20,709 nucleotides of DNA from positions 1-20,709 of IMG/VR virus record IMGVR_UViG_3300024520_000585. One strand, given 5' to 3'. Source of the DNA: a virus. The position numbers were made by a program, and so were the translations under genes. This document shows positions 1 to 20,709 of this stretch, piece by piece; positions within the stretch are counted from its first letter, which is position 1; each line of letters starts with the position of its first letter. The notes under the pieces were generated by a model. That model was not told the DNA's origin. It ran no database searches and saw only the letters and a program-made list of their open reading frames with translations.

Positions 1-890
1 AGCTAGAGTTGGCTAGGTCGGCGGGAGGAGGGCAGGATCTTACAGCATTAGAACGGCAACTTGCTGCTACAGGATTACAGCCAGGTACTCCACAATACCA
101 GCAAGCAATGTGGAAGTTGCTTACAACTCCTAAGACTAATGTTGAGACTAATGTAACTACAGGTAAGAAAGAACGTATACCGATACCTGCAGGTGCTCCT
201 TCTGGTGCTATATGGAAGAATCCTGAAAAACCGGGAGAAGGTATGTTAGTACCTGATCCTAACAGCCCAACTCAGATGAGAGAAGTACCACACACGGTTG
301 CTACAGCATCTACCGCAGGAGAAGCAACAAAGGAAGCACAAATACAGAGTGTTGGTGGTATGTTGTCTCGATATGGGCAACTATTAGATGCAGATGATAC
401 AGATCAATTATCTGGAATGGGCGGACTCTGGACAAAATGGCGTGCAAGACCAGAGTGGCAATCAGCTACCGCAGATAGTGTAGCAAATTTCTTTGGAAAC
501 GAAATAACGCCAGATGCTGCTGAAGCAATTGTTCTTAGTAGTAAGATCGAGAAAGAACTAATAGCAGCAATGAGAGGCGCTGCTGTAGGCCCAGAAGAAG
601 AAAAGAATTTTGTACCTAGTTTACCTGTACTTGGTACACCTAAAATGGTACAAAAAATAAACGCTAAAATTACTGAGGCTAATATAGAGTATCTTAATGA
701 GCGTGCAGAATATAATCGAGGTAGACGTAATGTTATGCCTACCTTGCCTGAGTATGAGCAGATAAGATTAGAGGCTACACAGGGAAGTAGTCCACAATCT
801 GCGACTCCAGGGGCTGTAAACAATTCAGATGCTGCCAGAAGAGCACGAGTAGAAGCTTACTTACCAGGAGTATTTAATAATGCCCCTTAA
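1..890 (+). CDS. Virion-type protein, 5'-truncated by the window edge
   Basis: The frame is open at the left edge (codons at 3-5 and 6-8 are sense), so the real start lies outside; the TTG at 9 is only the first possible start inside the window. About 293 residues are visible. The protein is soluble, rich in Ala, Gln, Pro and Gly, with no membrane segment. Residues ~180-240 hold a helical charged stretch (AMRGAAVGPEEEKNF, then NAKITEANIEYLNERAEYNR) of the kind seen at the C-termini of phage internal virion or DNA-ejection proteins. The following gene starts inside its last codons (overlap 880-890), as in co-expressed late genes. No enzyme motif is visible. Structural or ejection protein is an inference from composition and the next gene; the reality of the coding region is not in doubt. 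Confidence 0.75.
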   Translation, partial: LELARSAGGGQDLTALERQLAATGLQPGTPQYQQAMWKLLTTPKTNVETNVTTGKKERIPIPAGAPSGAIWKNPEKPGEGMLVPDPNSPTQMREVPHTVATASTAGEATKEAQIQSVGGMLSRYGQLLDADDTDQLSGMGGLWTKWRARPEWQSATADSVANFFGNEITPDAAEAIVLSSKIEKELIAAMRGAAVGPEEEKNFVPSLPVLGTPKMVQKINAKITEANIEYLNERAEYNRGRRNVMPTLPEYEQIRLEATQGSSPQSATPGAVNNSDAARRARVEAYLPGVFNNAP

Positions 891-2703
891 TACTGAAAAT
901 ATGACAGCCCAAGACGCTGGTGATGTAGCCTGGGCGATAACTCAAATTGGCGATGTTAAAAATATGGCTAACTGGAATGAGTCTCAGTTAGCCAGGCTAC
1001 AAGCAGGAATAGATTACTTTGATAATACTTTTGGTTTAGAGAATGGTCCGAAAGTCTATCAAATGGCTATGCAAGGGGCAGAAGCTACAGACAAGAAAGA
1101 TGTTCTAAAGTATGAACAACAACTTGTAAAGCATGTAAATTCTCTTGCTGCCCTTGCACCAACAACTCCACCAGAATTTGAACCTGATACTGGTGCTGCT
1201 TTTAATAAAGGACTACAGTCTGCATTAGCCGGATACTTCCCTGACAATGAAGCTAATAAAGCATTGGTTAGAGAAGCACAAGCAAGGTCAGAACAGAATC
1301 CTATTGCTGCAGGTGCAGGAAAGTTTATAGGTGGAATGTTACCTGCTGTTGGTGTTGAAATGGCCTTGGGTAAAATTCCTGGTGTAGGTAAAGCACTTAA
1401 TAAAGTAATACCAGGTAAAGGTTTTAAAGCTCTTGCTGCACGGGAAATGTTAATGAATCAAGGTCCGACTGCACGAGCTATAGCTGCAGGCGGTATTACA
1501 GGTGCTATTAATAGAGATGAAAATGCTTTAACAAATGCTGCATTTGGTGGTATATTTGCAAAAGGTGGGGAAGCTTTACTTGGACGTATGGCTACAAAGC
1601 CTAGTAATAGGAGTAAAGCAGATCAAACATTTATAAAGAAAATGGAAAAGAAAGGTTATTGGGCTAGTCCAGGTTTAGAATCTGGAAGAGCACAAGCTAT
1701 GATGCTAGACCAAGCATTAGAGAAGAGTGCGAATACTGCACATCAGGTTAAAGCTAGATTAGACCATAACAAACAGTTATTAACTGAAAGTGTAGCTGAA
1801 CAAATAGGTTTACCTTCAGGAACAAAGCATTTAGGTTTAGATGTAATTGATAGGCAACGAGAAGTATTAAATGATAAATTAGATACTTTTTATGCTAAGG
1901 TAAAACCTAATTTTAAACCTAAAGACTTAAGTATTATACAACAAATTAAAGACGATTATATAGATGTGATGGGAGAAGATATCCCTCGAGATCTAGAGAA
2001 AAGACTCAAGGCTTATACAAATACAGTTAAAAGACAAACACCATCAGAAGGAAATGAAAATATTCGAAAGCTTATTAAGATAACATCTGATAGAGCACAT
2101 TTTCATTATACAAACCAAGCTGGTAATCCAGAAGCTGCGAAAGGTTTTGATACTTTACATAAGTACTTAACCAAACGTATGGGAGATTTTGGTACTTCAA
2201 AACAAGAAGTTAAACAATGGAGAATTGATAGTGAACAGCAAGGATTACTACTAGATTTAGTTAAAACAGATAAAAATATGCTTACAACAGGTGAAGCAGA
2301 TCCTGCTGCAATAATGAAAATATTTAATGAAAGTGGGACACATAAAATTGCAGCTATTCGAAGACGGCAAGATATGTTTGATGCTGCTAAGTTTGCTTTA
2401 ATGCAAAGCAAATCGTTTATAAGTAGTCAAGCAATGCGGTCACGGTTAGGTCAATATTTTAGACCTAAACAGCGTACTTCGAATATGGGTACATTAGCTG
2501 ACTTAGCTTCATCTTCACAAATACCTCTTATATCTACAATACCTACTGCATGGTATCTTTCTCGAGGTGCAAAAGGTTTACTTCCATCGGGTGCAATACC
2601 ATTTGGCGGAAATGTAGGCGGGGCATATGGTGCAGCAGGTATGCCCAGCCTTGAATTTTTACCTGGCCTTCTCGGAGGAGGCGTAACAGAGGAAAACTTA
2701 TAA
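880..2703 (+). CDS. Putative internal virion / DNA-ejection protein
   Basis: A 607-residue protein starting at ATG 880, nine bases after AGGAG (866-870), overlapping the previous gene by 11 nt. Residues ~130-240 are unusually rich in Gly and Ala with amphipathic and hydrophobic stretches (GAGKFIGGMLPAVGVEMALG; IAAGGITGAI; AAFGGIFAKGGEALLG). The middle (~260-510) is charged and helical, and the C-terminus (~545-600) is again hydrophobic and Gly-rich (LLPSGAIPFGGNVGGAYGAA). This soluble-helical plus membrane-active Gly/Ala pattern is typical of phage proteins ejected with the DNA to form a channel across the envelope (P22 gp16/gp20, T7 gp15/gp16 type), but no specific family is recognised. No lytic transglycosylase motif is visible. 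The stop codon overlaps the convergent polymerase gene by 6 nt, leaving no room for a terminator. Its codons are more A/T-rich than those of the primase gene at 15996. Confidence 0.7.
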   Translation: MPLNTENMTAQDAGDVAWAITQIGDVKNMANWNESQLARLQAGIDYFDNTFGLENGPKVYQMAMQGAEATDKKDVLKYEQQLVKHVNSLAALAPTTPPEFEPDTGAAFNKGLQSALAGYFPDNEANKALVREAQARSEQNPIAAGAGKFIGGMLPAVGVEMALGKIPGVGKALNKVIPGKGFKALAAREMLMNQGPTARAIAAGGITGAINRDENALTNAAFGGIFAKGGEALLGRMATKPSNRSKADQTFIKKMEKKGYWASPGLESGRAQAMMLDQALEKSANTAHQVKARLDHNKQLLTESVAEQIGLPSGTKHLGLDVIDRQREVLNDKLDTFYAKVKPNFKPKDLSIIQQIKDDYIDVMGEDIPRDLEKRLKAYTNTVKRQTPSEGNENIRKLIKITSDRAHFHYTNQAGNPEAAKGFDTLHKYLTKRMGDFGTSKQEVKQWRIDSEQQGLLLDLVKTDKNMLTTGEADPAAIMKIFNESGTHKIAAIRRRQDMFDAAKFALMQSKSFISSQAMRSRLGQYFRPKQRTSNMGTLADLASSSQIPLISTIPTAWYLSRGAKGLLPSGAIPFGGNVGGAYGAAGMPSLEFLPGLLGGGVTEENL

Positions 2704-4566
2704 TTGGCCTACACTACCCCAGTTAGGGCCCACCTCCAACCCCATCCTAACTGGGACTTTAAGGCGAATGGCTGTCTCCATGATCGTACGTAGCTCTTCG
2801 AACTCCACGCGAAGATCTGGATGATAACTTAAGCAGATTTCATCATGTACGCTGATATGGGGATAGCCAGTTTTTTTGAATATACCAGACTTATAAGCAT
2901 CTAACATTCCTTTCTTCATTAAGTCTGCCGCACTACCTTGTAGCACACGATTGATAGCTTTATATGTGTCTGCTACTTGTATATTCCCACCCCACTTAGA
3001 CTGGGCTATAGGTAACAAATAAGCTTTACCTCTTAAGCCTGGCTTGTTCTCTTCCCACAGCCTAAATCTACTTTTTCTCCCAAGGATAGTCTGCACTTCA
3101 TACGGCGGTCTACTGGCTTCGATAGAGTAAGCCTTTAGCATGTTGGCCGCCGCTGGGAAGTTCTTTTGGTAGGTACGATATACTTCCTGTGCTCTACCCT
3201 TGGGATCTGGGTCATCGGGAAAGAATTGCGTAAGTTGAGCAGTAAGCTTTGTTTTACCCATTCCATAGAGTAATCCAAAGTTAATTGTTTTCATAGCAAT
3301 TCTAGGTATATTGCCACCCACTATTTTTCCTACCATAGCATGGAAGTCTGTATCTGCTTTTTGATATGCCGCAATAATTGTAGGATCTTCACTAAAGTGA
3401 GCAAACAACCGGTACTCAATTTGAGAATAATCCATAGAGGCAAATAACGGATAACCCTTCTCAGGGCAAAATATACCTCGTATAATCGGCGCCCATTGCG
3501 CATCTCTTTTTGGTATTTGTTGTCCATTAGGCTTTGAACAGCTAAACCTTCCGCTAATTGTTCCACCAGCATCACTTCTAAGAGGATGTAATGATGGATA
3601 TATTTTCCCATTAATCGACTTTCCCAATATTGCATTTTCAATGAAGGTTCCTCTTGCTTTTATAAGTTTACGTAAGTCTAGAACTTGACTAGCGATTGCA
3701 TGATTACAAGCATGGAGCCAGCTAGAAGTAAAACTAGGGTTACCCTTGTCAGTGTGCTCATAGTCTACTCCTACGTTGTTAAATAGTTTTGCTAAATCTT
3801 TACTAGAGTTTACATTTATTTTGATACCTGTAGTTTGTTGCAGTTGTATTTTCATTAGATGTTCTGCAGTAAGCATTTCATCCCGAACTTCCATAGCTGC
3901 AGGTTCATTTACTGGTAGCCCCCGCCTTCGCATATGAATCAGCAATGGAATTAACTCACATTCCATTACGAATAGATCCCATAGATTCTCTCGTTTAAGA
4001 GCGGGCCATTGACACTCGAAAATACGTAAAGGTAGCTCTGCATCTTTTATAGCATAGGGTGCAACGATACTCTCGGGCATTCTCCATAGATTCTCTCTTG
4101 GTTCCTTACTCCAGGGCCAATGCTCTTTATTATATTGCTCTATTTCACTCTTTGCTTTCGCTATCCCAAGGTAGTGCATTGCCAAAGCATCTAGAGAACT
4201 AGAGCGCCGCTTACCTTGACTAGTAAGCATGTTATCGTCTAGTAATGCTTCTGCGAACTGTATATCATATGGCGTCCCTGTGGGATATATTCCTAGTTCC
4301 GACAGCCAACCTAAGTCATATTGTAGGTTAGCACCGACAAGAGGTATTCCCGTTGATAAGGTATCACGAAGATATTGTATCACCTTGGGTATAGGGTCTT
4401 TGCCTATTGGAATATACCAACCTGGCTGTCCCTTTACAGCTAACGACACCCCCAATACATGACCTACTCCACGGCCCCAGCCCGGCCCGTCTTCTATGAG
4501 ATATGGGTCATAGGTCTCTGTGTCTAAAGCTATGAGTTTAGCGTCAGTTAAATTAGGTAGATTCAT
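2698..4566 (-). CDS. Family A DNA polymerase with 3'-5' exonuclease domain
   Basis: Replicative polymerase of the DNA Pol I family, 622 residues from ATG 4566 (GGA nine bases upstream, 14-nt overlap with the preceding gene). A longer TTG start at 4599 has no ribosome site and is less likely. Proofreading domain: D15 and E17 (IALDTET), D84 (NLQYD), Y171/D175 (YAIKD). Polymerase domain: TISGRFSCSKPNGQQIP at ~336-352, motif A DYSQIEYR with D379, motif B RIAMKTINFGLLYG with K426 and F430, and motif C VHDE with D575. There is no N-terminal 5'-3' flap nuclease, as in many phage enzymes. F430 occupies the E. coli Phe762 position, so discrimination against dideoxynucleotides is expected. Ligase, primase-helicase, helicase and SSB-type genes are in the same window. 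It ends convergently on the virion gene. Confidence 0.97.
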   Translation of the reverse strand: MNLPNLTDAKLIALDTETYDPYLIEDGPGWGRGVGHVLGVSLAVKGQPGWYIPIGKDPIPKVIQYLRDTLSTGIPLVGANLQYDLGWLSELGIYPTGTPYDIQFAEALLDDNMLTSQGKRRSSSLDALAMHYLGIAKAKSEIEQYNKEHWPWSKEPRENLWRMPESIVAPYAIKDAELPLRIFECQWPALKRENLWDLFVMECELIPLLIHMRRRGLPVNEPAAMEVRDEMLTAEHLMKIQLQQTTGIKINVNSSKDLAKLFNNVGVDYEHTDKGNPSFTSSWLHACNHAIASQVLDLRKLIKARGTFIENAILGKSINGKIYPSLHPLRSDAGGTISGRFSCSKPNGQQIPKRDAQWAPIIRGIFCPEKGYPLFASMDYSQIEYRLFAHFSEDPTIIAAYQKADTDFHAMVGKIVGGNIPRIAMKTINFGLLYGMGKTKLTAQLTQFFPDDPDPKGRAQEVYRTYQKNFPAAANMLKAYSIEASRPPYEVQTILGRKSRFRLWEENKPGLRGKAYLLPIAQSKWGGNIQVADTYKAINRVLQGSAADLMKKGMLDAYKSGIFKKTGYPHISVHDEICLSYHPDLRVEFEELRTIMETAIRLKVPVRMGLEVGPNWGSVGQL

Positions 4567-4747
4567 GTCGGTTATTCCAAACGTCTTTAGCTGCTGCAAT
4601 TATGATATCGTGCTGAGCTCTACTATTCCACCCATGAAGTGGATCTGGACCGGTGGCACCACAGTTGAGGCATTCGACCCATGGCTGGCCACGAATAATT
4701 TTACTCAGATCTTCTGATCCACAGAATGGACATGGTTTAAGTTTCAT
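4553..4747 (-). CDS. Lar-type zinc-ribbon protein (restriction-alleviation family)
   Basis: A 64-residue protein with two CxxC knuckles, C6/C9 (LKPCPFCGSE) and C26/C29 (VECLNCGATGP), followed by GWNSR. This is the recognisable layout of the Lar/restriction-alleviation family (PF14354-type): CPFCG, then W(V)xCxxCGAxGP, then a WN(R) box. In Rac prophage and related phages, Lar modulates type I restriction-modification to protect unmodified DNA; most phage members are assigned by sequence alone, so the activity here is inferred. ATG 4747 overlaps the HNH stop as ATGA (4744-4747), and its own end overlaps the polymerase start by 14 nt, so the three are probably translationally coupled. A generic zinc-ribbon of unknown role is the alternative. 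Confidence 0.85.
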   Translation of the reverse strand: MKLKPCPFCGSEDLSKIIRGQPWVECLNCGATGPDPLHGWNSRAQHDIIIAAAKDVWNNRHEST

Positions 4748-5427
4748 TTCTGTCTCCTATAGTAGAAAGGGTTCGGTGCTACAGCATCATCTTGTGAGAA
4801 ACGATTACCTTTACTGCTATTTTCAGATTTTGTTAATATCTGTAAATTATCAGCACAGTGTAATCCAGACACATTAACTCCTCGTATTGGTATGATATGA
4901 TCTACGTGACGTTGTATGCCATCTAGCTTTGTTAGCACATGTGCTTCTAAATAAAAGGCATCGATCTCAGCAGTCTCTTCTGCTGACTTTGCCCATTTAG
5001 GTAATGCCCTAAGCTTTTTTGCCTGATATCGTTGCTTGTTTGCGCTTGCTCGCTCTGGGTTATTTCTTGCCCAAGCATAGGCAGCTTCATTTGCAGTAGC
5101 TCGGCCTTCTTCTGTAGCTCTATATTTATGTACAGCTTCCCTTGCATAAGCTCGGCCCTCTGGTGTAGCTCTATTTTTATGATTGGCTAGGTTAGAAGCT
5201 TCCCTGCTACATTCTTTACACTTTAGATTTAACCCATCTTTTGCGCGTCTATCTATACCAAACTTGTCTATGCTTAAACATCTTTGACAAGTACTACATA
5301 TTTTATAGCCTGCCGGAACGTTAGCTCTAGCTTTATTTTTAGCTTTAGCTTTAACTCTCTTTTCAGCTCTTACTGTTTGATATGCTTGTGCAATCTGTTG
5401 TGCTATGTTTTGTTCTGTGACACTCAT
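4744..5427 (-). CDS. HNH homing-type endonuclease with N-terminal zinc finger
   Basis: A 227-residue protein. Residues 1-40 are a Lys/Arg/Ala-rich basic tail. A Cys4 finger follows (C44, C47, C70, C73: YKICSTCQRC and NLKCKECSREA), then repeated charged segments (~84-140, ATPEGRAYAREA / ATEEGRATANEA). The C-terminus is an HNH nuclease: VDHIIP (D176, H177), LHCADNLQILT (N194) and SSKGNRF (N208). HNH enzymes nick or cut DNA with one metal ion; free-standing phage ones are often mobile and sit beside DNA polymerase genes, as here. The gene has a 160-nt leader upstream, overlaps the Lar gene by 4 nt, and is homologous in layout to the HNH gene at 18182-18826. The reading frame is intact. Confidence 0.93.
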   Translation of the reverse strand: MSVTEQNIAQQIAQAYQTVRAEKRVKAKAKNKARANVPAGYKICSTCQRCLSIDKFGIDRRAKDGLNLKCKECSREASNLANHKNRATPEGRAYAREAVHKYRATEEGRATANEAAYAWARNNPERASANKQRYQAKKLRALPKWAKSAEETAEIDAFYLEAHVLTKLDGIQRHVDHIIPIRGVNVSGLHCADNLQILTKSENSSKGNRFSQDDAVAPNPFYYRRQK

Positions 5428-5587: not shown

Positions 5588-6628
5588 TCAGCTTCTCCAC
5601 GCTTTTGCTATTGGATGGAAAGGTACTTCATCCTTCGTTAAGTAGGCATATTCTATAGTAACTACCCTACCAATATACTGTGGTGCATTCTCTGCTACTA
5701 AGTGTTTTTCATTATGTGTACCAGGTGCAGTAGCACTGAATTTCTTTCCATTTCTTACTTGCATGTGTAGTATACCCCAACCATCTGGTGAGGTAGTAAC
5801 ATCAATAACTATAAACTCTTTGTCTTGCCAAGCTTTGAGTTTAACTAATGTATTACTTCGCTTGCCATCTTCATACCCCATGTCGCCTATTCTTAAAATG
5901 GCCCCTTCGTATTTCTCTTCTCGAAACTGATCAAAATAAGATATAGCCATTTCATATGAGTCTACAGCTATAGTTTCTACTAATGCTGTATTGTGCCCAT
6001 ATCTATATTTTTCTAATATAGTTAACCTTTGTATAAATGGCTCAGGAGATACCATATCATATATATGATATTTTAGCCATTGTGTTCCTAACTGTTTTCT
6101 TTTAATCCAACTAACTATAGTCTGTAGTGATTCGCCATGTGCATATACTTCGCCATCTAATATAGTACCTTCTGGTATGTTTAGTTCTGCTAAGATATGA
6201 TCAATAGTTTTTATTCTTTTACCATTCCTAGTATATGCAATAAGTTCGCCCTCTATATTTGCAACTAGGCAACGGTTACCATCATACTTTCGCTGTATAA
6301 AAGCATCAGTATATTCTATATTTTTGACTTTCTTGAATGGCTGTGCCAACATAGGCCGGGGCAGCGCTATTGCGTTAGTTCGGCCGGACATAGCTTCCTC
6401 AATGTCCGTTACATAGCCCTTATCCAGTTGCTTATTAATCTTTGCAGCTATTTCCAATGCTACTTGCTCCATTATAGAGCGCCCGGACTGGTTAGCAATT
6501 ACTTGACTGGTTTTGTATTGTAATGCCCCTCCCAGTTGCCCCCAAGAGATAGTAAAGCCTTTCGTTTCTGCGTCTATGCCCCAAACCCGAAGATCGCCTT
6601 TTACATCTTTTGCAAATAAAGTAGTCAT
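5588..6628 (-). CDS. ATP-dependent DNA ligase with N-terminal WGR-like domain
   Basis: Seals nicks in duplex DNA through an enzyme-AMP intermediate. The 346 residues hold the nucleotidyltransferase motifs: motif I KYDGNR (K114 is the adenylated lysine), motif III LDGEV (158-161), motif IV EGAI (241-244) and motif V LVKLKAW (261-267). A short OB-fold region follows to residue 346. The N-terminal ~80 residues are not part of a minimal ligase. They show VWGIDAE, SWGQLGG, EQVALEIAAKINKQ and KGY, matching the WGR domain pattern (WG-R/Q-x-G, then a helix ending in K.GY) best known from PARP proteins. ATG 6628 overlaps the dCMP deaminase stop as ATGA. Ligase is firm; WGR is a motif-level call. Confidence 0.95.
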   Translation of the reverse strand: MTTLFAKDVKGDLRVWGIDAETKGFTISWGQLGGALQYKTSQVIANQSGRSIMEQVALEIAAKINKQLDKGYVTDIEEAMSGRTNAIALPRPMLAQPFKKVKNIEYTDAFIQRKYDGNRCLVANIEGELIAYTRNGKRIKTIDHILAELNIPEGTILDGEVYAHGESLQTIVSWIKRKQLGTQWLKYHIYDMVSPEPFIQRLTILEKYRYGHNTALVETIAVDSYEMAISYFDQFREEKYEGAILRIGDMGYEDGKRSNTLVKLKAWQDKEFIVIDVTTSPDGWGILHMQVRNGKKFSATAPGTHNEKHLVAENAPQYIGRVVTIEYAYLTKDEVPFHPIAKAWRS

Positions 6629-7017: not shown

Positions 7018-7805
7018 TAGCCTGTATTCAGTAATGCGTTGATGGGTGGGTGAGATGTGTAGTCTTTCAATACAGCCATATTCGCTGTAAAGTTATCTAT
7101 AGTAGCCATAGGGTCTAGCATAAGTGTAGGCAAAGCATACGGCTTTCTTGCTACTTGCATCTTAACTAGTAACTCATGATTTTCATAGATATGACAATCC
7201 CCAAGGAAAGCATGTAGCATATTCGGCGTTAGATTACACTCTTGTGCTACTAATGACAGTAGAAGTGCATAATAGGCTATATCAAATGGTAAGCCTAACA
7301 TTAAATCTACACTTCGCATATTAAAACTTAGTGATAGTCCCCAGTCGTCCACATAGAACTGAAAAGCATAATGGCAAGGCGGTAGACATCCCAAGTGGAG
7401 CTCTCCTGGATTCCACATAGTTACAAGATGGCGGCGGCTTGTCGGATCTTCTTTGATATTGTCTACTACTTGACGTAGTTGATCTATACTACCTTGGGGA
7501 CCTTGCCAATCACGCATTTGTGGGCCATACACTCTACCCATATCTGTGTCACCAGACCAGCGTTTGGCATCTTGTAACCATATAGCTGAGCCCATCTTAC
7601 TTGCATCTGTTTCAGCTCGTAAAAAGCCTGCTAACTCATTAGCACAGCTTTTAAAATATAACTTCTTTGTAGTTACTGCTGGAAAAGTATCAGCTATACT
7701 GATGGCAAAGTGCTGTCCAAATTTAGATATAGTTGGTCCAGCTCTGGTATTTCGCCGATTTCCAGATAGTAGTACTTTATCCAGAAGGGCAAGATAGTTA
7801 TACAT
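7017..7805 (-). CDS. Thymidylate-synthase homologue, predicted dCMP (hydroxy)methyltransferase
   Basis: A 262-residue member of the ThyA fold, almost the length of E. coli ThyA (264). Seen: SRRHLVTMWNP (R124/R125, phosphate binding across the dimer), LPPCH with nucleophile C144, VYGPQMRDW, RSVDLMLGLPF, GDCHIYENH and C-terminal HPPI. At residue 175 (codon GAT, plus strand 7281-7283) it has Asp, exactly 31 residues after the catalytic Cys, where thymidylate synthases have Asn (E. coli N177). Asp here is the known switch to dCMP: T4 dCMP hydroxymethylase has it, and an Asn-to-Asp mutant of L. casei TS methylates dCMP. W76, matching the folate-contacting Trp of TS, is retained, so 5-methyl-dCMP is at least as likely as 5-hydroxymethyl-dCMP. 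The fold assignment is firm; the substrate is inferred. It sits between the pyrophosphatase-like genes and the deaminase. Confidence 0.93.
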   Translation of the reverse strand: MYNYLALLDKVLLSGNRRNTRAGPTISKFGQHFAISIADTFPAVTTKKLYFKSCANELAGFLRAETDASKMGSAIWLQDAKRWSGDTDMGRVYGPQMRDWQGPQGSIDQLRQVVDNIKEDPTSRRHLVTMWNPGELHLGCLPPCHYAFQFYVDDWGLSLSFNMRSVDLMLGLPFDIAYYALLLSLVAQECNLTPNMLHAFLGDCHIYENHELLVKMQVARKPYALPTLMLDPMATIDNFTANMAVLKDYTSHPPINALLNTG

Positions 7806-11212: not shown

Positions 11213-11227
11213 TTATACCTCCTAATG

Positions 11228-11295: not shown

Positions 11296-11305
11296 ACTTT
11301 TTAAC

Positions 11306-11731
11306 TTATACCCAAGGGGCTTCTTCAGTAGCCTCTATGGCCTCTACGGCCTCTTTGTAATTACTGACAGTATTACTAGGAGCATAGGGGCCACTAGCGG
11401 GCCGGATCGTGACACATGCGCTTATTGGGATTCCGTGCAGTTCTTGTGTATTTTCAATAAGCGGTATACCACAAGCAATGCAAATCTTACTTAAATCACG
11501 TTGTGCGATTTCCACAGCCTTGGGATTCGGATTATCTAGGTTGAGGTTAGCCCAAAGAAGTTTGTTTACATGCTTACCTTCTATGATCTTAAAGGTTAAT
11601 TTAAGATAGTTGCCGTCTCCCTTTTTTGTGTTCATCATTACACTGTCTGTAATGATAACATTATAACGGCCAGCAGGTATAGGAGTAAATTCTTGCGCGA
11701 CTTTTGACGCATCAAATTTTAGTGTTGTCAT
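11306..11731 (-). CDS. DUF669 single-stranded DNA-binding-type protein
   Basis: A 141-residue protein that matches DUF669 from end to end: FDASKV..EFTPIPAGRYNVII, TKKGDGNYLKLTFKIIEG, ANLNLDNPNPKAVEIA, ICIACGIP, and YAPSNTVSNY. DUF669 proteins stand beside phage recombinases and are regarded as SSB-like. The C-terminus (EATEEAPWV) is acidic with a hydrophobic end, reminiscent of SSB tails that recruit partner proteins. It starts by a 1-nt overlap (TAATG) with the Sak4 gene. Sak4 annealing is known to be stimulated by the cognate SSB in other phages, so the pair probably works together. Family assignment is strong; DNA binding is inferred. Confidence 0.88.
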   Translation of the reverse strand: MTTLKFDASKVAQEFTPIPAGRYNVIITDSVMMNTKKGDGNYLKLTFKIIEGKHVNKLLWANLNLDNPNPKAVEIAQRDLSKICIACGIPLIENTQELHGIPISACVTIRPASGPYAPSNTVSNYKEAVEAIEATEEAPWV

Positions 11732-12408
11732 TAGGTTATTACCTTTTTAAATATGTCAGTTAAGTTTGGTTTTTCTGCTTCATTCAGTTTACCTGAACGA
11801 TCTTTTGCTAGATATTGTATGTTTGGTTGTGTTTGTAGGTAACGTTCACCTTCTTTGGTTACTCTCATGCAACAAAGTATGTCCATGAGATATGGAAAGT
11901 TTTGGGTATACATCTGCCCCGGAAGCATGGGACCGAAGCGTATAGTATTAGCTATACTATCTGTAACACACCCTTGTTTTGCTGTAAAGACTACATGCAT
12001 TGGTAATGCTCTGAATGCACGAGTAAGCCTTAGCATTTCCATTGCCATCTTGCCATATGCCTGTCTAGGATCAGCTTGTTTGCCTTCTTCGTTTGCTTTC
12101 CTTTGCAGTTCAAGAAGGCTACCATCGAGTGATTGTTCAGCAATATCACTAATGGAATCTAAACATACAGTCTCATAGGCCCCGCCATGTGCCTTCACAA
12201 AAGCATAAGCTTCTTGTAGCTCTGCAATACTATTTAGCTCTATAGCAGGTATATCTTTATTTGCTAATGAAAGCAACCCTGCTTCAGCTGATAGTATCAA
12301 TGGCTTTGGTGCTGTACTGCACAATACAGTTTTACCTACGCCTGACTGCCCATAAATGGTTATCTTGACATAGTGTATATCACGTTTGGTTGACGTTACA
12401 TTTATCAT
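11731..12408 (-). CDS. sak4: Sak4-like RecA-family ATPase (annealing recombinase)
   Basis: A 225-residue P-loop ATPase of the AAA_24/Sak4 group, remote RecA relatives that anneal single strands during phage recombination. Walker A is IYGQSGVGKT (18-27) and Walker B is VCLDSISD with D84. The sequence KMAMEMLRLTRAFRALPMHVVFTA (given in part: residues ~119-142) is the typical third strand-helix, and the C-terminus NLTDIFKKVI is typical too. Total length equals that of known Sak4 proteins. It overlaps the genes on both sides (ATGA upstream, TAATG downstream) and is followed by DUF669, exonuclease and RadD-like helicase, which is the expected recombination cassette. Confidence 0.9.
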   Translation of the reverse strand: MINVTSTKRDIHYVKITIYGQSGVGKTVLCSTAPKPLILSAEAGLLSLANKDIPAIELNSIAELQEAYAFVKAHGGAYETVCLDSISDIAEQSLDGSLLELQRKANEEGKQADPRQAYGKMAMEMLRLTRAFRALPMHVVFTAKQGCVTDSIANTIRFGPMLPGQMYTQNFPYLMDILCCMRVTKEGERYLQTQPNIQYLAKDRSGKLNEAEKPNLTDIFKKVIT

Positions 12409-12761
12409 TTTATTGCCAATGTGCCTTGACCAGGCTTTGCAGTAACTGCTTGCCGTAAAATACTATCATCTGGTAACTTGTTATACAAGTTGATCTTAAG
12501 AGTTGGTTTCCAATCTAGGCAAAGAACTTCGTCTGTTGAAAGCTTTCCCAAGATGGCTAACTCTGCCCGATCTATCGTATAGTTTACTCTTGCAGTTGCG
12601 GTTACCTTAAATCCGCCAAAGATATCAGTTTTTGAGCCGATCTTAGTGTTTTTTAGCACCTTGGGAAGGATAAGGTTACGAAGGCGAACTTCTTGTTCTT
12701 TTACAGTTGTAAGAGTTGCTTTTGCTGCTAACCAATCTTGTACTAGTTGTTCATCTTTCAT
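12405..12761 (-). CDS. DUF7173-like phage protein upstream of Sak4
   Basis: A 118-residue protein with an N-terminal helix (LVQDWLAAKATLTTVKEQE), a central strand pair (GGFKVTATARVNYTIDRAEL) and a C-terminal YNKLPDDSILRQAVTAKPGQ. This matches small phage proteins commonly encoded directly before Sak4/AAA ATPase genes, which I believe are called DUF7173; the function is unknown. The start at 12761 has only a weak AGAG ribosome site and follows the structured 12789-12928 region, so its translation may depend on that leader. ATGA overlap with sak4. Confidence 0.75.
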   Translation of the reverse strand: MKDEQLVQDWLAAKATLTTVKEQEVRLRNLILPKVLKNTKIGSKTDIFGGFKVTATARVNYTIDRAELAILGKLSTDEVLCLDWKPTLKINLYNKLPDDSILRQAVTAKPGQGTLAIK

Positions 12762-12928: not shown

Positions 12929-13615
12929 CTAGGCTGCATTCTCTTGCTGTGCCCACTCTTTTGCAAAATTGACATACGTCAAAAAGGCATTTGCAGTAGA
13001 CTCAGCATATCCTAGATCATTATGCATTGCCTGCACAAGATCTTTTCGTTGCATCGTAATGTTCTCTCGAATGTAGCTAACGAGCTCGCTCAGCGGAACA
13101 CTATTACCCACACGTCCAGTACTAATACCGAGCTCACGAGTAGCTCGACTATACGCAGCTGCTGCCGAGTTAGCAGTATAGCCCATTTCGTTCTGAAGAG
13201 CTTCAACAACTTCAGTACGACTCTTATCCGCACCAATAAGTTCTGATACGAATTTGACCATATCCACAAGGCTATTGCGATTCTGCGAAGGCAGTTCCAC
13301 ACCCGCCTCTTCCGCATACTTACGGATATGAGCACCAGCAGTAGCTTCGCTTACATCAAAAGTATCCGCAATAAGCGTTAGCATCTCTTTGCGTACATCA
13401 CTATCGGTGAGGTCTGCATCCTCAAGCATCTCATCGACTTTCTTCGTACGCTCTTTTGCCCCAAGGGTGATGCCCGCTCCCCGAGCTAACTTCTGGTATT
13501 CACGTACAGCTTGTGTGATATCGACACCACCTTCAGTAGCAAGCTTCATGATGGTAGCATTCTTGTCAAGATCTGCTTCTAATGCAGCTTGAAAAAGTTC
13601 AGTAAGTTCGGCCAT
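12929..13615 (-). CDS. Four-repeat helical (HTH-like) protein, unknown function
   Basis: A 228-residue protein made almost entirely of four tandem ~50-residue helical units at about 4-50, 59-108, 116-165 and 175-224. The unit is best seen in copies 3 and 4: (S/D)LV..(I/V)(R/S)E.I....(R).(V/L)V.A(L/M)(Q/H)N(E/D)(M/L)GY, then .A.(S)A.A(A/F), then a helix ending in RELGI or AKEWA. Copies 1 and 2 are more diverged (GVDITQAVREYQKLARGAGI; FDVSEATAGAHIRKYAEEAGV). Each unit looks like a three-helix DNA-binding bundle. It has its own promoter (13645-13679), a good ribosome site (GGAGAAG), higher-GC codons than many neighbours and flanking non-coding spacers, so it is probably highly expressed. A DNA-coating or transcription-control role is conjecture; no family recognised. 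Confidence 0.85.
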   Translation of the reverse strand: MAELTELFQAALEADLDKNATIMKLATEGGVDITQAVREYQKLARGAGITLGAKERTKKVDEMLEDADLTDSDVRKEMLTLIADTFDVSEATAGAHIRKYAEEAGVELPSQNRNSLVDMVKFVSELIGADKSRTEVVEALQNEMGYTANSAAAAYSRATRELGISTGRVGNSVPLSELVSYIRENITMQRKDLVQAMHNDLGYAESTANAFLTYVNFAKEWAQQENAA

Positions 13616-14309: not shown

Positions 14310-15218
14310 TTACCAGTTACGTTTGCTTGCAGGGAACATTGCTCTTACGATATGTACAGCTTCTTGAGTTAACTTTGCATTTTGTTCACCTTTGTCAGGG
14401 TGGTGGGCTTTACGATAGCCAGTGAGTATCCACGACATTGTCTCTTCAGTTACTGATCCTATGTTAAAATCAATACCAAAGAGTTTATACTGTTCACGAC
14501 GCAGAGCTACGTAGTCTGTTGTATCACCCTCTCGTTTTGGTTTCTCTTGTTTCGGTGCCTCTTTTTTGATCTTTGTTGCTGTCCATAGCATGTTTATTCT
14601 CACGCATGCCCATTCCTGGCCGTCCGCCGTCTTTATTCCCAAGGAGGCGTCATCAGTATCTTCTAAGATATCAATGAGCTCTTCAGGTACGGTCTTGTCA
14701 TACCGCCAGCGGAGTACCTCCTCTTCTACCTTTTTATCTTGCTCCTCTTGGGCTTTCGTAGCCTCAGTTGCACGTTCTGCTGCCTCCATCCGTAACAACT
14801 CACGGAAGTCTTTAACATCCCGTAATGTTGTATTTGGAGTTATGATATTAGCATCTTGGGCTTTCTTTAACTCTGCATCACTCATCCTAGCGAGTTCTAC
14901 GAGAGTCTGATAGCTACTGGGTAAAAGGTGAGATAAATATCTCTCCAATTTCCGGCCATCCTGTACGGCAGTTATAAACTCACCTGCTTTAGCCCATTTT
15001 GATGGAAGATCATTTTTATAGCCAGTCCACTCTTCTACTTTCTTACGGTAGTAGTTACCTGGCCCGCCCAGTCCATCAAGTGCCTGTTGCTTGCATGCCA
15101 TCTTGAATTCATAGATATCTGTAGCATGCTTGAATATCCACTCACGTGACTTACTCCGAGATAACTGGATCTTCTCTTGCCAGTCATGCTCGAAGGTTTT
15201 AACGTCTAGTTCATTCAT
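14310..15218 (-). CDS. DUF3102/ParB-like protein with C-terminal J-domain (HPD) motif
   Basis: Start chosen at ATG 15218 (MNELDVKTF), overlapping the preceding small gene by 8 nt; the longer start at 15266 lies within that gene. The 302 residues show an N-terminal helical region (REWIFKHATDIYEFKMACKQ), then KWAKAGEFITAV (75-86) and LLPSSYQTLVELARMSDAEL (98-117), reminiscent of DUF3102/ParB-type helical DNA-binding modules. A Glu/Lys-rich coiled-coil follows (145-170). At the C-terminus (~245-296), LFGIDFNIGSVTEETMSW ... GYRKAHHPDKGEQNAKLTQE has the helix-II, HPD (273-275) and helix-III order of a DnaJ J-domain. HPD triggers DnaK ATP hydrolysis, so the protein may recruit the host chaperone to a phage nucleoprotein complex; this is inference. 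Confidence 0.8.
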   Translation of the reverse strand: MNELDVKTFEHDWQEKIQLSRSKSREWIFKHATDIYEFKMACKQQALDGLGGPGNYYRKKVEEWTGYKNDLPSKWAKAGEFITAVQDGRKLERYLSHLLPSSYQTLVELARMSDAELKKAQDANIITPNTTLRDVKDFRELLRMEAAERATEATKAQEEQDKKVEEEVLRWRYDKTVPEELIDILEDTDDASLGIKTADGQEWACVRINMLWTATKIKKEAPKQEKPKREGDTTDYVALRREQYKLFGIDFNIGSVTEETMSWILTGYRKAHHPDKGEQNAKLTQEAVHIVRAMFPASKRNW

Positions 15219-15390
15219 CAGGTATACCCCATAGGAAAACATCAAATTGTGTTTTCTCTTTTTCAATTATTCTAGCTGCTTCTGTATATGTACAACCTAG
15301 TGCCTCCATAATATTGTTGATAGCTTCTTCATACCTGTCACGCTTCTCTACATCTTGTAGAGGTTCATTTAACCAGTCATCATAGTTCAT
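15211..15390 (-). CDS. Small 59-residue protein of unknown function
   Basis: A short open frame from ATG 15390 to TGA 15211 (MNYDDWLNEPLQDVEKRDRY ... FLWGIPDE). Its ATG overlaps the upstream stop by one base (TGATG) and its stop overlaps the next start by 8 nt. It fills what would otherwise be the only large gap in this part of the block. The composition is acidic, helical and protein-like (EEAINNIMEALGCTYTEAAR). No family is recognised. The exact coupling of both ends is the main evidence that it is real. Confidence 0.65.
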   Translation of the reverse strand: MNYDDWLNEPLQDVEKRDRYEEAINNIMEALGCTYTEAARIIEKEKTQFDVFLWGIPDE

Positions 15391-15814: not shown

Positions 15815-16003
15815 ATGAATTTCAAGACCTGTAATACCTGTCATAAGAATCTACCTGATAATAAAGAATCTTTTCTGCCAGCTCTTAAGAAAGGCGGAAT
15901 TTGGGGAACTACAATTAAATGCCGCCGCTGTGCTAATGCCAGTGCTGTTGAGCGGCGCCTTATTCGTGAAATCACCAAGCTCATGGAGCAAGCTAATGTA
16001 TGA
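15815..16003 (+). CDS. Small Cys4 zinc-finger protein coupled to primase
   Basis: A 62-residue protein with C6/C9 (KTCNTCHKNLP) and C36/C39 (IKCRRCANA), a treble-clef-like Cys4 finger, followed by a basic helix (SAVERRLIREITKLMEQ). The finger closely resembles the N-terminal fingers of both HNH proteins in this window (CxxC-xxLP...F ... CxxC), but there is no HNH domain. It lies downstream of the 15753-15787 promoter, and its stop overlaps the primase start by 8 nt, with the primase ribosome site inside it. A DNA- or primase-binding partner is plausible; a leftover finger of an old HNH gene is the alternative. Confidence 0.75.
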   Translation: MNFKTCNTCHKNLPDNKESFLPALKKGGIWGTTIKCRRCANASAVERRLIREITKLMEQANV

Positions 16004-18185
16004 AGCAGAACAGTTTCTCACTTTATTAGACCCCACAGCTACTAAATTCCTGTTCGTTACTTTTGACGACTGTAAGAACAAGAATTATAACCTTACCCGT
16101 AACTTCTACGGTACGTTTGCGGAGCACAAAGATACTCTCGCAGATCTTAATTCCCAAGGCGCCGGTATATTCGTTACTGTCAACAAGACTAAAGGTAACC
16201 GCCGCCGTAAAGAAGACTTTATCATTGCCCGTGCTATCTGGCAAGAAGACGACATAGACAGTACAAAACGACCCGACATCCAACCGCACATTATAGTCGA
16301 GTCTAGTCCTAATCATTTCCATCGCTACTGGCTCACAATACAAACAGACATCCCAAGATGGGAGCGGGCGCAACTCCAAATGGTCCGCCATTTCGATAGC
16401 GACCCAGGTGCTAAGGATATAGCGAGAGTACTGCGGCTTCCGGGCTTCCGCAATAATAAACGCAATGCTGATGTCCGCCTGCTTAGTATAACTAGTCATG
16501 AGCCCTACTCTTGGGAAGAAATGGAGCGGGCTCTACTCATTCCGCAACCGGAAACCCACACAAATTCCGCCGCCAATCCGCCTCCCCAAGAGAGTACGCT
16601 TAGCCAGTATGTAGCACAGATAACGTCTGGCGAACATCTACATGCTCCACTACGGGCCATAATGATGATCAACGCCAATAAAGGCGAAGACCGCGAATAT
16701 AACAAAGTCATCTGCACAGGACTCATCTCTGCTTGCCCAGACCTAGAAAGGCAAGCAAAAGCCGCCGCTGATCTAGACTCTATGCTAGACGCCACATACC
16801 GCAAGATAGCCGAAGAAACGCCACCACCCATAATCTTTTCCCCAAGGATAGAGCTAGACCTAGACTGGCCGCCCGGCCTAATGGGCGAACTAGCTAAAGC
16901 CGCCAATGATTTCTTTGTAATCCCTAACAAGACAGCCGCCATTGTAGCCTCAATCAGCCTGATAGCAGGCATTTGCGGCCGCAAGTATAACATATCCACC
17001 GGTGGCTTAAACTTATACACAACCATAATGATGCCAACTGGCGCCGGTAAAGATAGCATACGTAAGTTCTGCTACCGTGTGCTAATGGACAAAGGCATGC
17101 TAGGCACTAACGGTATGTCCTTCTTGGGTCCCCAGAACTTCACAGGTCCCAAGGCCCTGCTAACTGAACTCCAGGCTAGACCTAGCATGCTCTGCGTAAT
17201 GACTGAAGCTGGCTTACTGTACAAGACCGAGTCTGGCGACAGAAGCGGCTTAACCAGAGTTATCCTGCAGGCATATACCAGTAGCGGCCAGCATGAAGTC
17301 ATCGAGACTGAGCGATACAGTTCACAACAAGACTCAGTCGGCGTAGTGTATAGCCCAGCTTTGACTATCCTCAATGAAGCAACCCCTGTGACCTTACTCA
17401 ACGAACTAAAACGCCGTGAGTCCATCAACACAGGCGAACTCCCAAGGATGTGGATATTCATGCTAACCGGCAAGAAGCCATACCCAAACCCGGAACCCCA
17501 CCGCTTAAATCTATCCGCCGGCATAACTGACAACATTCGTGAACTCCTAAACTCTGCTTATGCAGTACAAACCAATAGTGTACCCGACGTTATAAATATA
17601 CCCGTCCCAAGTGAGTACCGACTCTTCACCGAAGAATGTACAGACATCTACAACCGCCTAATGGAAGAACAACCAAATCATGCTATTATGTACTCCCGCG
17701 CTAGTCATAAAGTACTGAAGGTAGCCGCTATCCTTTCGGTTCTGGATAACCCACTAGGAACTCCAAGTATTTCGCCCCAAATGTGGAACTGGAGCAAGAA
17801 GTTCTTTGAGTATGAAATGCACAACATTGACCCTATCATAGGCAATACTAGCGATGTAGCTCTTGCTATGACAAAAGCTGCACATATCATATCTAAGCTC
17901 CTCAAAGGCGAATATACTGGCAAGAACAAAACTATTAACTCTGAGCTCAGAGCTCGAGGTATATTCACTGAGAGTACTTTCAAGCAAGCTGCATCTAATA
18001 TACCAAGCATCCGTGATGCAGGTACTTCTATGAAATATGGCTCTCCCAAGAGTGGCTCCCGTGTCATGCTTGAGTATCTGCTTGCTGAAGGCTATGTAAC
18101 TAAAGCCGTTATACCTCGTTCTAAAGGTTTTCAAGTTACAAAGCTATTTAGCGATTATTGTGCTACACTTCATCTTACAGCTTAG
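15996..18185 (+). CDS. Primase-helicase fusion: AEP (RepB-like) primase plus DUF3987
   Basis: Start ATG 15996, seven bases after GGAG (15985-15988); the upstream GTG 15930 adds non-conserved residues within the zinc-finger gene. The 729 residues begin with an archaeo-eukaryotic-type primase of the RepB/PriCT class: metal site WQEDDID (82-88), ESSPNHFHRYW (102-112, with H107 and H109) and ARVLRLPGFRN (143-153). A linker and a helical PriCT-like part (~225-275) follow, then a DUF3987-type P-loop domain with Walker A MPTGAGKDS (346-354) and a degenerate Walker B region (MLCVMTEAG). Such fusions synthesise primers and unwind DNA at the fork. No separate replicative helicase is seen, so this protein probably fills both roles. 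Codons are more GC-rich than the virion genes. It ends convergently, overlapping the HNH gene by 4 nt. Confidence 0.9.
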   Translation: MYEAEQFLTLLDPTATKFLFVTFDDCKNKNYNLTRNFYGTFAEHKDTLADLNSQGAGIFVTVNKTKGNRRRKEDFIIARAIWQEDDIDSTKRPDIQPHIIVESSPNHFHRYWLTIQTDIPRWERAQLQMVRHFDSDPGAKDIARVLRLPGFRNNKRNADVRLLSITSHEPYSWEEMERALLIPQPETHTNSAANPPPQESTLSQYVAQITSGEHLHAPLRAIMMINANKGEDREYNKVICTGLISACPDLERQAKAAADLDSMLDATYRKIAEETPPPIIFSPRIELDLDWPPGLMGELAKAANDFFVIPNKTAAIVASISLIAGICGRKYNISTGGLNLYTTIMMPTGAGKDSIRKFCYRVLMDKGMLGTNGMSFLGPQNFTGPKALLTELQARPSMLCVMTEAGLLYKTESGDRSGLTRVILQAYTSSGQHEVIETERYSSQQDSVGVVYSPALTILNEATPVTLLNELKRRESINTGELPRMWIFMLTGKKPYPNPEPHRLNLSAGITDNIRELLNSAYAVQTNSVPDVINIPVPSEYRLFTEECTDIYNRLMEEQPNHAIMYSRASHKVLKVAAILSVLDNPLGTPSISPQMWNWSKKFFEYEMHNIDPIIGNTSDVALAMTKAAHIISKLLKGEYTGKNKTINSELRARGIFTESTFKQAASNIPSIRDAGTSMKYGSPKSGSRVMLEYLLAEGYVTKAVIPRSKGFQVTKLFSDYCATLHLTA

Positions 18186-18826
18186 TCTAACCGATTATAT
18201 TTAACAGCATTGTCATGTTGCGTAATAACTTGTAAGTTATCCTCACAATGTAAGCCACATACTGTACGTCCTTGTAATGGTACTATGTGGTCTACTACAT
18301 ATGTTGTATTAGATGATGCAGTCAAATATTTAGCTAATGTATAAAACTCTTTTATTTTAGCTAAATCTGCCCAAAGAGGTATAGCTTGTAATTTTGCAGC
18401 TCTACGTTTGCTACTATGTGCAGTCATAAGATCACTATTTTTTTCATACCATATTTTATTTCTTGCTTTAATTTGTTCTGCATGTTCTTTGTTATATGCT
18501 TGTGCTAATGCTTTATACTTCTCAGGTTTAGCAGCCATGCTTCGTTTACTAGATGCTCGGTGTTTTTCTTTATTTTCGGCTGCCCATTTAACTTGATATG
18601 CTTGTCGTTCTTTTTTATTATCTTGATAATATTGTTTACATCGCTCATTATGCTCAGGATGTTGTTTATACCAAGCTTTAGTTCGCTCTGCTGGAGTAGG
18701 TATGCCACAACTAAGGCAATACATAGAGAATCTACCTGTTGGTGTAAGACAAAATTCTCCCAAGGGTAGTGTACACTTACATTGCTTGCAAGCTTTATGT
18801 GTGCGGCCAGTAGAATCGATATTCAT
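18182..18826 (-). CDS. Second HNH homing-type endonuclease
   Basis: A 214-residue relative of the HNH gene at 4744-5427. Cys4 finger: C13/C16 (KACKQCKCTLP) and C37/C40 (MYCLSCG). A long lysine-rich helical stretch with repeated YxxNKEx/WAAENKEK-type units follows (~45-130). The nuclease has VVDHIVPL, LHCEDNLQVIT and HDNAVKYNR. It stands alone between the primase end (4-nt convergent overlap) and a divergent control region, and is A/T-rich compared with the primase. This fits recent insertion of a mobile HNH gene. The frame is intact. Confidence 0.93.
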   Translation of the reverse strand: MNIDSTGRTHKACKQCKCTLPLGEFCLTPTGRFSMYCLSCGIPTPAERTKAWYKQHPEHNERCKQYYQDNKKERQAYQVKWAAENKEKHRASSKRSMAAKPEKYKALAQAYNKEHAEQIKARNKIWYEKNSDLMTAHSSKRRAAKLQAIPLWADLAKIKEFYTLAKYLTASSNTTYVVDHIVPLQGRTVCGLHCEDNLQVITQHDNAVKYNRLD

Positions 18827-19078: not shown

Positions 19079-19489
19079 ATGACAAACGCGAAACAGAAAG
19101 GCGCTAATGGCGAAAGAGAAGCATGTATCACTCTTGGGAAGATGTTAACTGGCATAGAGGGTGCTTCGCCCACTGGTACTCGGGTCCCGTATAGTGATTT
19201 ACTGGAACGAAACTTAGAACAAACTAGATCTGGCGGGGCAGATATCATGGGTATTGCTGGGCTTTGCATTGAAGTTAAGCGATGTGAGACAGTAACGATA
19301 CCAATGTGGTGGCGACAAGTTAACAGAGCGGCCGAAAACACTGGTACTTTGCCTGTACTCATGTATCGGCAGAATAGAAAGCCATGGACCTTTTGCCTGC
19401 CATCGTATCTGCTCGTAGTTGGGGCCAAAGGGTATCTCACTCTTGGGGAACCAGACTTCCGTGTCTGGCTTCGGCATTGGTTAGCCTAG
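19079..19489 (+). CDS. PD-(D/E)XK nuclease, Holliday-junction-resolvase-like
   Basis: A 136-residue protein from ATG 19079. Seen: KGANGEREAC (helix with conserved Glu), RSGGADIMGI (first metal Asp), LCIEVKRCE (E-x-K), and then WWRQVNRAA, the usual Q-containing helix. This is the order E...GxxDI...ExK...Q of small Hjc/phage-type PD-(D/E)XK endonucleases that resolve branched DNA before packaging. The partner in the window would be the Sak4 recombination set. It is transcribed from the iteron-containing divergent region and overlaps the next, convergent gene by 9 nt. A generic structure-specific nuclease is the alternative. Confidence 0.85.
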   Translation: MTNAKQKGANGEREACITLGKMLTGIEGASPTGTRVPYSDLLERNLEQTRSGGADIMGIAGLCIEVKRCETVTIPMWWRQVNRAAENTGTLPVLMYRQNRKPWTFCLPSYLLVVGAKGYLTLGEPDFRVWLRHWLA

Positions 19490-19711: not shown

Positions 19712-19903
19712 CTACATGTTAACCAACATCTTGTTGGCGGGTTTGGATGCCGTCTCTATGACAAACGCACGATCAACATCGATCGGGCAATTCATCTTGA
19801 TGGCATCTACTTGGGAAACATAGACTAGTAGTTCGGGATGTATCATCACAAAGTAACATTTATCATTTGTGATGTCTCGGATAAGCCAATGAGCTTTCTT
19901 CAT
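19712..19903 (-). CDS. Small unknown protein
   Basis: Start proposed at ATG 19903 (MKKAHWLIRDI), 63 residues; a longer version from ATG 19945 adds MVVSKKLLCFLRHD but begins only a few bases after a terminator-like hairpin and has no ribosome site. The protein is strand-rich: HWLIRDITNDKCYFVMI, ELLVYVSQVDAI, then IDVDRAFVIET. Such small alpha-beta proteins are common in phage early regions. No function can be given. Confidence 0.6.
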   Translation of the reverse strand: MKKAHWLIRDITNDKCYFVMIHPELLVYVSQVDAIKMNCPIDVDRAFVIETASKPANKMLVNM

Positions 19904-20001: not shown

Positions 20002-20241
20002 TTACTTTGTTACATACTTAACATATGCATCAACGTAATTTTGAAAGCTTAAGTAATGAAAAGCCGATGATTCTTTACAAAGGCCTTGAGCTTCGCACGC
20101 TTGGGCCAACTTACGACGGGAGCTATAGTTCCCGCGATTATCTATGATGAATTTAACTAATGCATCATAATCGGTCTTATGACTACTAGCTAATTTGGCT
20201 TCGAGCTCTTTGATTTTGGCTTCTAATTCGCTTGTGTTCAT
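20002..20241 (-). CDS. Small helical protein, possible DNA-binding regulator
   Basis: Start at ATG 20241 (MNTSELEAKIKELEAKLASS); a longer frame to 20343 consists of A/T-tract translation and is not credible. The 79 residues begin with a coiled-coil (ELEAKIKELEAKLA) and continue with NYSSRRKLAQACEAQGL and SAFHYLSFQNYVDAYVKY. The second part has a helix-turn-helix look (RKLAQACEAQGL), but no family is recognised. No strong ribosome site. A 10-bp dyad operator candidate lies 22-45 bases upstream, so autoregulation is conceivable. Confidence 0.6.
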   Translation of the reverse strand: MNTSELEAKIKELEAKLASSHKTDYDALVKFIIDNRGNYSSRRKLAQACEAQGLCKESSAFHYLSFQNYVDAYVKYVTK

Positions 20242-20286: not shown

Positions 20287-20321
20287 TTTAAATATTATAA
20301 TATAAATAAAAAAATAAATAT

Positions 20322-20348: not shown

Positions 20349-20545
20349 TTTTATATTATTATTATATTATTATATATTTATATTATTATATAATTATATA
20401 TTTATATATTTATATATTTATATATTTATATTATATTATTATTATATTATTATATTAATATATATTTATATTATTATATTATTATATTATTATATATTTA
20501 TATATTTATATTATTATATTATTATATTATTATATATTATTATAA
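20342..20545. repeat. 204-bp tract without a single G or C
   Basis: From 20342 to 20545 every base is A or T. It is built of irregular repeats: TATATATT about four times near 20395-20430, and ATTATTATAT-type units in several places (for example 20440-20460 and 20471-20540). The 73-codon open frame across it encodes only Ile, Tyr, Leu, Phe and similar and is an artefact. Such a tract melts easily; a DNA-unwinding element of an origin, a matrix-like spacer or an assembly artefact are the options. Confidence 0.8.
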
Positions 20546-20709
20546 GCTCAGTTTATTGAGATATAAATATAATTTATGAGCCCCTCTACGCACTCGAGCA
20601 AGCTCTCGTGCGGTCGTTTCGTGCAATTAAGTCCAGTTTTTACGCTATAAGAAAGAGCCCGCTATAAAAAATTATTTCGGGTTAAAATTTAAGCACAATA
20701 AGATAAATC
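20546..20709. other. Non-coding right end of the window
   Basis: No credible gene. It has an imperfect dyad GCACTCGAGC/GCTCTCGTGC (~20590-20612) and CGCTATAA twice (20643-20650 and 20660-20667, 17 bases apart), each followed by A-rich sequence. No ribosome site with a long frame runs off the edge. Confidence 0.5.

Follow-up and report, generated by a model that had tools for sequence, protein, structure and literature searches.

A recurrent hexamer and a primase-helicase gene

The DNA analyzed here, hereafter the window, is the whole 20,709-nt stretch of the IMG/VR virus record IMGVR_UViG_3300024520_000585. Examination of the window revealed 41 copies of the hexamer CCCAAG (read as CTTGGG on the other strand), 24 on the plus and 17 on the minus strand, and a plus-strand gene at 15930-18185 encoding a primase-helicase, which we propose as the protein recognizing this word. 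The gene is listed from a GTG at 15930, with an ATG at 15996 the more likely start. Its product matched the Pfam families RepB_primase (E 9.5e-16) and DUF3987 (E 3e-7), the latter corresponding to a helicase-type part encoded at 17148-17777 (+; Pfam).

Residues 1-180 of the AlphaFold model, encoded at 15999-16538 (+), represent the predicted catalytic domain of an archaeo-eukaryotic primase (AEP), and matched the cyanophage S-2L PrimPol with a Z score of 21.4 and RepB' of plasmid RSF1010 with Z scores of 17.1-17.4 (17.1 for PDB 3h25). The orthologues in three relatives described below (G002, G003, and L215) are 44-59% identical, and the WQEDD, HRYW, and D-P-A-K-D columns are invariant or nearly so across the four proteins. 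By Pfam assignment, motifs, and predicted fold, the enzyme has an AEP catalytic domain of the RepB' type. The secondary structure of the model further suggests a helix-bundle domain of four helices at residues 200-273 (16596-16817, +), which would follow the catalytic domain as the bundles of RepB' and NrS-1 do. Alignment to full-length RepB' (3h20) covers residues 1-274 with a root mean square deviation of 16.2, the match of the bundle itself being weak, and the Pfam HBD model found no match in the window primase.

The counts in the original prediction (41 sites, 24 and 17 by strand, of which 23 read CCCAAGG and 12 CCCAAGA) and every coordinate it gave were reproduced exactly; its figure of 38% for the GC content was revised, as the measured value is 40.2%. 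On the plus strand, CCCAAGG is found at 3079-3084, 4165-4170, 7200-7205, 8386-8391, 9514-9519, 10942-10947, 11311-11316, 13460-13465, 14638-14643, 16153-16158, 16841-16846, 17148-17153, 17441-17446, and 18759-18764; CCCAAGA at 908-913, 6541-6546, 12547-12552, 16352-16357, 16585-16590, and 18045-18050; CCCAAGT at 7390-7395, 10927-10932, and 17606-17611; and CCCAAGC at 5070-5075 (coordinates are those of the hexamer). On the minus strand, CCCAAGG is found at 1365-1370, 3199-3204, 4384-4389, 7493-7498, 8531-8536, 9502-9507, 10862-10867, 11519-11524, and 12660-12665; CCCAAGA at 14747-14752, 14855-14860, 16510-16515, 17123-17128, 19133-19138, and 19442-19447; CCCAAGT at 19810-19815; and CCCAAGC at 20100-20105.

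Base composition predicts 6.0 occurrences of CCCAAG and 1.2 of CCCAAGG in the window. CCCAAG ranked first among the over-represented hexamers with a z of 14.2, compared to 7.3 for the runner-up, and in the same hexamer counts its one-mismatch neighbours were near expectation, none being comparably enriched. Shuffling of synonymous codons within genes gave a mean of 8.9 copies (standard deviation 2.6, maximum 18 in 2000 shuffles) versus the 41 observed, and the shuffle rerun with another gene caller gave a z of 12.3. The word is read in the sense orientation at 21 sites and antisense at 20, with all three frames occupied in both, and none of the 41 sites is intergenic. The use of different frames was therefore confirmed, and the codon-preserving shuffle with both gene callers bore out the earlier claim that the pressure is on the DNA and not the protein; similar counts from such a shuffle had been named as grounds for refuting that claim, and were not obtained.

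The word is kept in relatives while its positions turn over

The nearest relative, L001, is 95% identical in nucleotide sequence over its overlap with the window, and beyond the homologous stretch carries 10 more CCCAAG sites within 6 kb. Alignment of the family A DNA polymerase (2698-4599, -) identified two relatives at 60-62% polymerase identity. L129 (record G003) has 43 CCCAAG sites in 18.5 kb with 6.6 expected, and L128 (record G002) has 65 in 42.8 kb with about 22 expected, CCCAAGG alone being present 45 times versus 5.5. CCCAAG was again the top hexamer in L215 (48 versus 7.2 expected), which was reached solely via a four-repeat protein encoded at 12929-13615 of the window. The codon-shuffle z was 7.9-12.3 across the window, G002, G003, and L215, and 4.9 in the short extension of L001; the excess, whose disappearance outside the window was the other result that would have spoken against the original prediction, thus persists in all four relatives. 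Among more distant polymerase relatives, at 44% identity and below, no comparable CCCAAG enrichment was found (median ratio about 1.06), with mild enrichment in some, such as L133/G006 (codon-shuffle z 4.0).

Between the window and L001, 11 of 14 sites are retained, near the 79% retention of all hexamers. Those kept begin at 16153, 16352, 16510, 16841, 17148, 17441, 17606, 18045, 19133, 19442, and 19810; the site at 16585 falls in an alignment gap, that at 17123 is lost by one base, and that at 20100 is also lost. In codon alignments of orthologues, window sites coincide with sites of the relative in 2 of 34 cases for G002, 4 of 34 for G003, and 6 of 27 for L215. Density is maintained while positions change, indicating that the word is kept by density through continual loss and gain and not by conserved position.

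The 206 pooled sites of this clade have a strict core and weak flanks, with pyrimidines at -1 and -2 and G at +6, +9, and +10; read on the opposite strand, a C-rich stretch lies 5' of CTTGGG and purines lie 3'. In a separate observation, the palindrome GGCGCC is over-represented in L001 as much as CCCAAG (seven places, 14 versus 1.3 in a two-strand count), and occurs in only four places in the window.

Each strand is spaced evenly and independently

Spacing was tested in 13 genomes, that is 26 strands, using each genome's own word (the words of the other lineages are given in the next section). Spacing between sites of the same strand was under-dispersed relative to the random mean on 26 of 26 strands (Fisher P 4e-29). 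The pattern is seen in Vibrio phage VpKK5, whose two strands have coefficients of variation of 0.28 and 0.31 with steps of about 2 kb, the plus-strand sites lying at 547, 2713, 4477, 6730, 8075, 11535, 13849, and onward. The median same-strand gap was 0.5-3.6 kb, and the largest gaps in the window are 2.2 and 3.1 kb.

Permuting the strand labels among sites abolished this regularity, with a combined P of 1e-17 over the 13 genomes. For the window alone the label permutation gave a P of 0.0175 with CCCAAG and 0.004 with CCCAAGR. These two forms, the full hexamer and CCCAAGR, were taken as the primary tests because several word variants were tried in G002, where CCCAAGG by itself is evenly spaced on one strand only. 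Sliding one strand against the other had no effect on the result (P 0.21). As a control, 195 other enriched words of the same genomes were tested, of which 2.6% reached P<0.05 and none P<0.005. Since regularity is destroyed by permuting labels and not by sliding, each strand is tiled independently of the other, which points to a function in single-stranded DNA. The 0.5-3.6 kb spacing fits the scale of Okazaki fragments, which are about 1-6 kb in phage T7 (PMC12839067).

Other phage lineages carry other words

When every 6- and 7-mer was compared against codon shuffles, both in related contigs and in cultured phages that share the replication module, over-use of a word proved not to be peculiar to one phage. 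The word TGCCCACA was present 20 times versus 2.7 expected in Escherichia phage Halfdan, 17 versus 2.4 in Pseudomonas phage Kakheti25, and 12 versus 0.8 in Klebsiella phage Kmi2C, and GCCCACA was enriched in the same three phages (22/4.2, 28/6.7, and 27/4.2 observed/expected, respectively). CCCACAA was found 37 times versus 5.4 in Salmonella phage S144 and 27 versus 4.4 in Erwinia phage RF1, and TGNCCACA is the word of VpKK5 and of Pseudomonas phage PSASB_03. The matrix of words by genomes is block-diagonal, with every word restricted to its own lineage. One word, TGCCCACA, is thus common to phages of three host genera, and the two Pseudomonas phages of the group differ in their word. Since the words track phage lineage across hosts, the recognizing protein would appear to travel with the phage and not with the host.

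In the named phages that bear a word, the primase is fused to a helicase-type domain; S144 has a DUF3987 protein in the same place, and no primase was identified in the RF1 record, which is partial. The Pfam NrS1-1_pol-like HBD domain, absent from the window primase, is present in Halfdan, Kakheti25, PSASB_03, VpKK5, and others, and NrS-1 PrimPol is a homologue of the Halfdan enzyme (E 2e-27).

The words are not enriched in a piece of the E. coli chromosome or in the unrelated Pseudomonas phage LUZ19, and the E. coli Chi octamer, with two copies, is not enriched in the coliphage Halfdan. Scans of viral and bacterial contigs for dense pairs or triples of CCCAAGG gave mostly chance or ascertainment matches and no host, and in the bacterial genomes no strongly enriched genome was seen among the matches listed. 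As to the protected modification site suggested in the original prediction, no methyltransferase was recognized among the proteins scanned in this analysis. A literature search, largely without subscription papers, found no description of these words.

Several further candidates were set aside. CTAAGGA of L458 was dropped because most of its copies, inverted or in tandem, are clustered at one place in the L458 contig (record G007), where nine copies lie at 5084-5322, four on one strand and four on the other in 10-12 bp steps plus one more, an arrangement resembling origin iterons or an operator array. The words of L461-L463 (TCCGCG/TTCCGC), L190/L191 (ACACCG), L139/L140 (TCCACA), and others were enriched, and are not claimed because they mostly failed the spacing test. 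Among these, TCCGCG or TTCCGC is not regularly spaced in L461, L462, or L463, and ACACCG/CGGTGT is enriched in four relatives (L190, L191, L182, and L183), with strand-specific spacing significant only in L190 (P 0.012).

A proposed start-site ladder for the phage primase

The reading we favor, with a probability of roughly 70%, is that CCCAAG(R), or (Y)CTTGGG on the other strand, marks where the RepB-type AEP primase-DUF3987 helicase encoded by the phage recognizes a single-stranded template and begins priming. With the helicase unwinding the DNA, the lagging-strand template exposed behind it would offer the primase a site roughly once per kilobase, at which a primer would be made, the sites setting the starts of Okazaki fragments. 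Selection would keep enough sites on each strand without long gaps, leaving their positions free to change between relatives. The enrichment, its independence of codon choice, the turnover of sites, the words particular to each lineage, and the even tiling of each strand are observed; we infer that the primase is the recognizing protein, which strand serves as template, and where within the site the primer would start. A primase start site was among the functions guessed at in the original prediction, and the spacing and the lineage-specific words favor it over the others listed there.

Related primases are known to read template bases. The catalytic domain of RSF1010 RepB' contacts specific template bases (PMC4434180), and the enzyme shares its AEP domain family with the window primase by Pfam, profile, and predicted fold. 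RSF1010 differs in having a single 40-nt hairpin site per strand (ssiA and ssiB; PDB 3h20, 3h25) used in a leading-strand mode (PMC4434180), whereas the window has dozens of short sites per strand. For NrS-1 PrimPol, GTGA and GTGG were the most efficient sites measured (5'-GTGG-3'; PMC8718748), and GTGG is contained in three words of the sister phages, TGTGGGCA, TTGTGGG, and TGTGGNCA. Like the window enzyme, NrS-1 PrimPol is an AEP-type phage primase with a C-terminal helicase; it also has a helix-bundle domain, of which the window enzyme has a predicted counterpart, and recognizes several template bases, as proposed for the window enzyme (Zhu et al. 2017, as cited in PMC8718748). Phage T7 gp4, with its sites 5'-GTC-3' and (G/T)2GTC, likewise starts primers on the lagging-strand template to yield Okazaki fragments of about 1-6 kb, and is unlike the window enzyme in being a DnaG-type primase (PMC12839067).

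Several results weigh against this interpretation. The NrS-1 genome, used as a positive control, is not enriched in the octamer defined in vitro, TTTGGTTA (1 versus 2.1 expected), and the window word lacks GTG, its primase being of RepB type and not NrS type. The strand-specific regularity of the four window-clade genomes (combined label-permutation P 0.015) is weaker than that of the named phages, and G003 alone gave a P of 0.46; perhaps the short core includes some sites that occur by chance. The genome G004 has a related module and no clear word, and in phage Me-ZS1, whose primase shares 56% identity with the PSASB_03 enzyme, the only word is weak and different. Lastly, the genes for the Cas4-type exonuclease, helicase, Sak4, and single-strand binding protein (SSB) co-vary with the primase, so that the recognizing protein is not isolated by genetics, and a phage-encoded Chi-like role becomes the main rival.

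In that rival, which we consider unlikely, the Cas4-type exonuclease (10237-11055, -) and the ResIII/DEAD helicase of the module (8374-9942, -), with Sak4, would process DNA ends and respond to the word on one strand by starting recombination-dependent replication. These genes lie in one module in the phages that bear a word, whose presence they follow as closely as the primase does, and Chi is likewise a short, asymmetric, strand-specific word that can be enriched and selected in phage genomes (PMC3784561). Even spacing on the Okazaki scale is, however, not a known property of Chi. Chi is also read by a host-encoded protein and has an observed/expected ratio of about 2.3 and a density of 0.2 per kb (PMC3784561), compared to about 2 per kb for the words described here, which follow phage lineage across hosts. 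The agreement of GTGG within several words with a measured PrimPol site (PMC8718748) further argues against a Chi-like role, as does G004, in which relatives of Cas4, helicase, SSB, and Sak4 at 41-45% identity are accompanied by no clear word. Improbable to a further degree is a role for the word as the binding site of the helix-turn-helix-like four-repeat protein (12929-13615, -) in architecture, segregation, or silencing. Its close homologues (59-67% identity) occur in G002, G003, and L215, all of them enriched in CCCAAG, L215 having been found through that very protein. A double-strand binder, however, would not require regularity on each strand, a profile of the protein found no match in the named phages, whose words are just as strong and laid out in the same way, and distant homologues are present in L134 and G004, where the enriched word is not CCCAAG.

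Slightly less probable still is a word dictated by the host, as its Chi, an uptake sequence, or a genome signature, and mirrored by the phage. Chi is enriched in lambdoid phages lacking RecBCD inhibitors (PMC3784561); on the other side stand the use of TGCCCACA by phages that infect E. coli, Pseudomonas, or Klebsiella, the two copies of Chi in Halfdan, the lack of the words in LUZ19 and in the piece of E. coli chromosome, and the outcome of the bacterial CCCAAGG scan. The suggestions in the original prediction of a Chi-like site, taken as a host Chi, and of a host uptake or architecture word are disfavored on these grounds, the sampled hosts lacking the word and the spacing being strand-specific. 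A packaging signal, also suggested there, would not be expected to tile both strands of whole genomes. Mutational or codon-pair bias with no function is barely credible. Such bias would allow the observed lack of positional conservation between relatives, but neither a strict hexamer nor strand-specific even spacing is expected from it, and with other enriched words of the same genomes lacking such spacing, the tests above largely refute it.

Primase specificity is usually seen as a matter of two to four bases, with sites far exceeding those used. A broader proposal, which we hold to be probable, though with somewhat less assurance than the start-site function in the window, is that one whole group of tailed phages, those with AEP primase-helicases related to these, write a ladder of 6-8-base start sites into their genomes, with both strands tiled independently and the word shifting with lineage. 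If so, the words, and hence the Okazaki start points, could be read from sequence alone, lagging-strand starts would be predictable, and primase specificity would be tied to genome evolution. There would also be a testable route to a recognition code for AEP primases, for which Halfdan, a phage of E. coli K-12, is suited. Mycobacteriophage stoperators are, like CCCAAG, asymmetric sites repeated over a phage genome, and differ from it in being longer and bound by a repressor; stoperators are not known to be tiled strand by strand.

Other genes of the window

Besides the Cas4-type exonuclease, the replication and recombination module at 10237-12408 (-) comprises a DUF669 single-strand binding protein (11306-11731, -) and an AAA_24 ATPase (11731-12408, -), the latter called Sak4-like by synteny, the name being taken from annotated syntenic phages. 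The family A polymerase, also assigned to the module, is unlikely to be the recognizing protein, because BLAST found no match between the polymerases of phages using TGCCCACA and those of phages using TGNCCACA. The rival recognizing protein at 12929-13615, a predicted DNA binder of four three-helix repeats, was modeled from its single sequence with low confidence (mean pLDDT 64); beyond the homologues mentioned above, it had no match in 50,697 phage records and none in a search of bacterial genomes.

Two related HNH-type genes lie at 18182-18826 and 4744-5427. The former, which contains the CCCAAG site at 18759, appears mobile because it is missing from L001 at that place. The product of 14310-15266 (-) has a C-terminal part that by eye resembles a DnaJ (J) domain (HHPDKG) and has no PHROG match. 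Near the contig end, 20338-20559 is very AT-rich and of low complexity.

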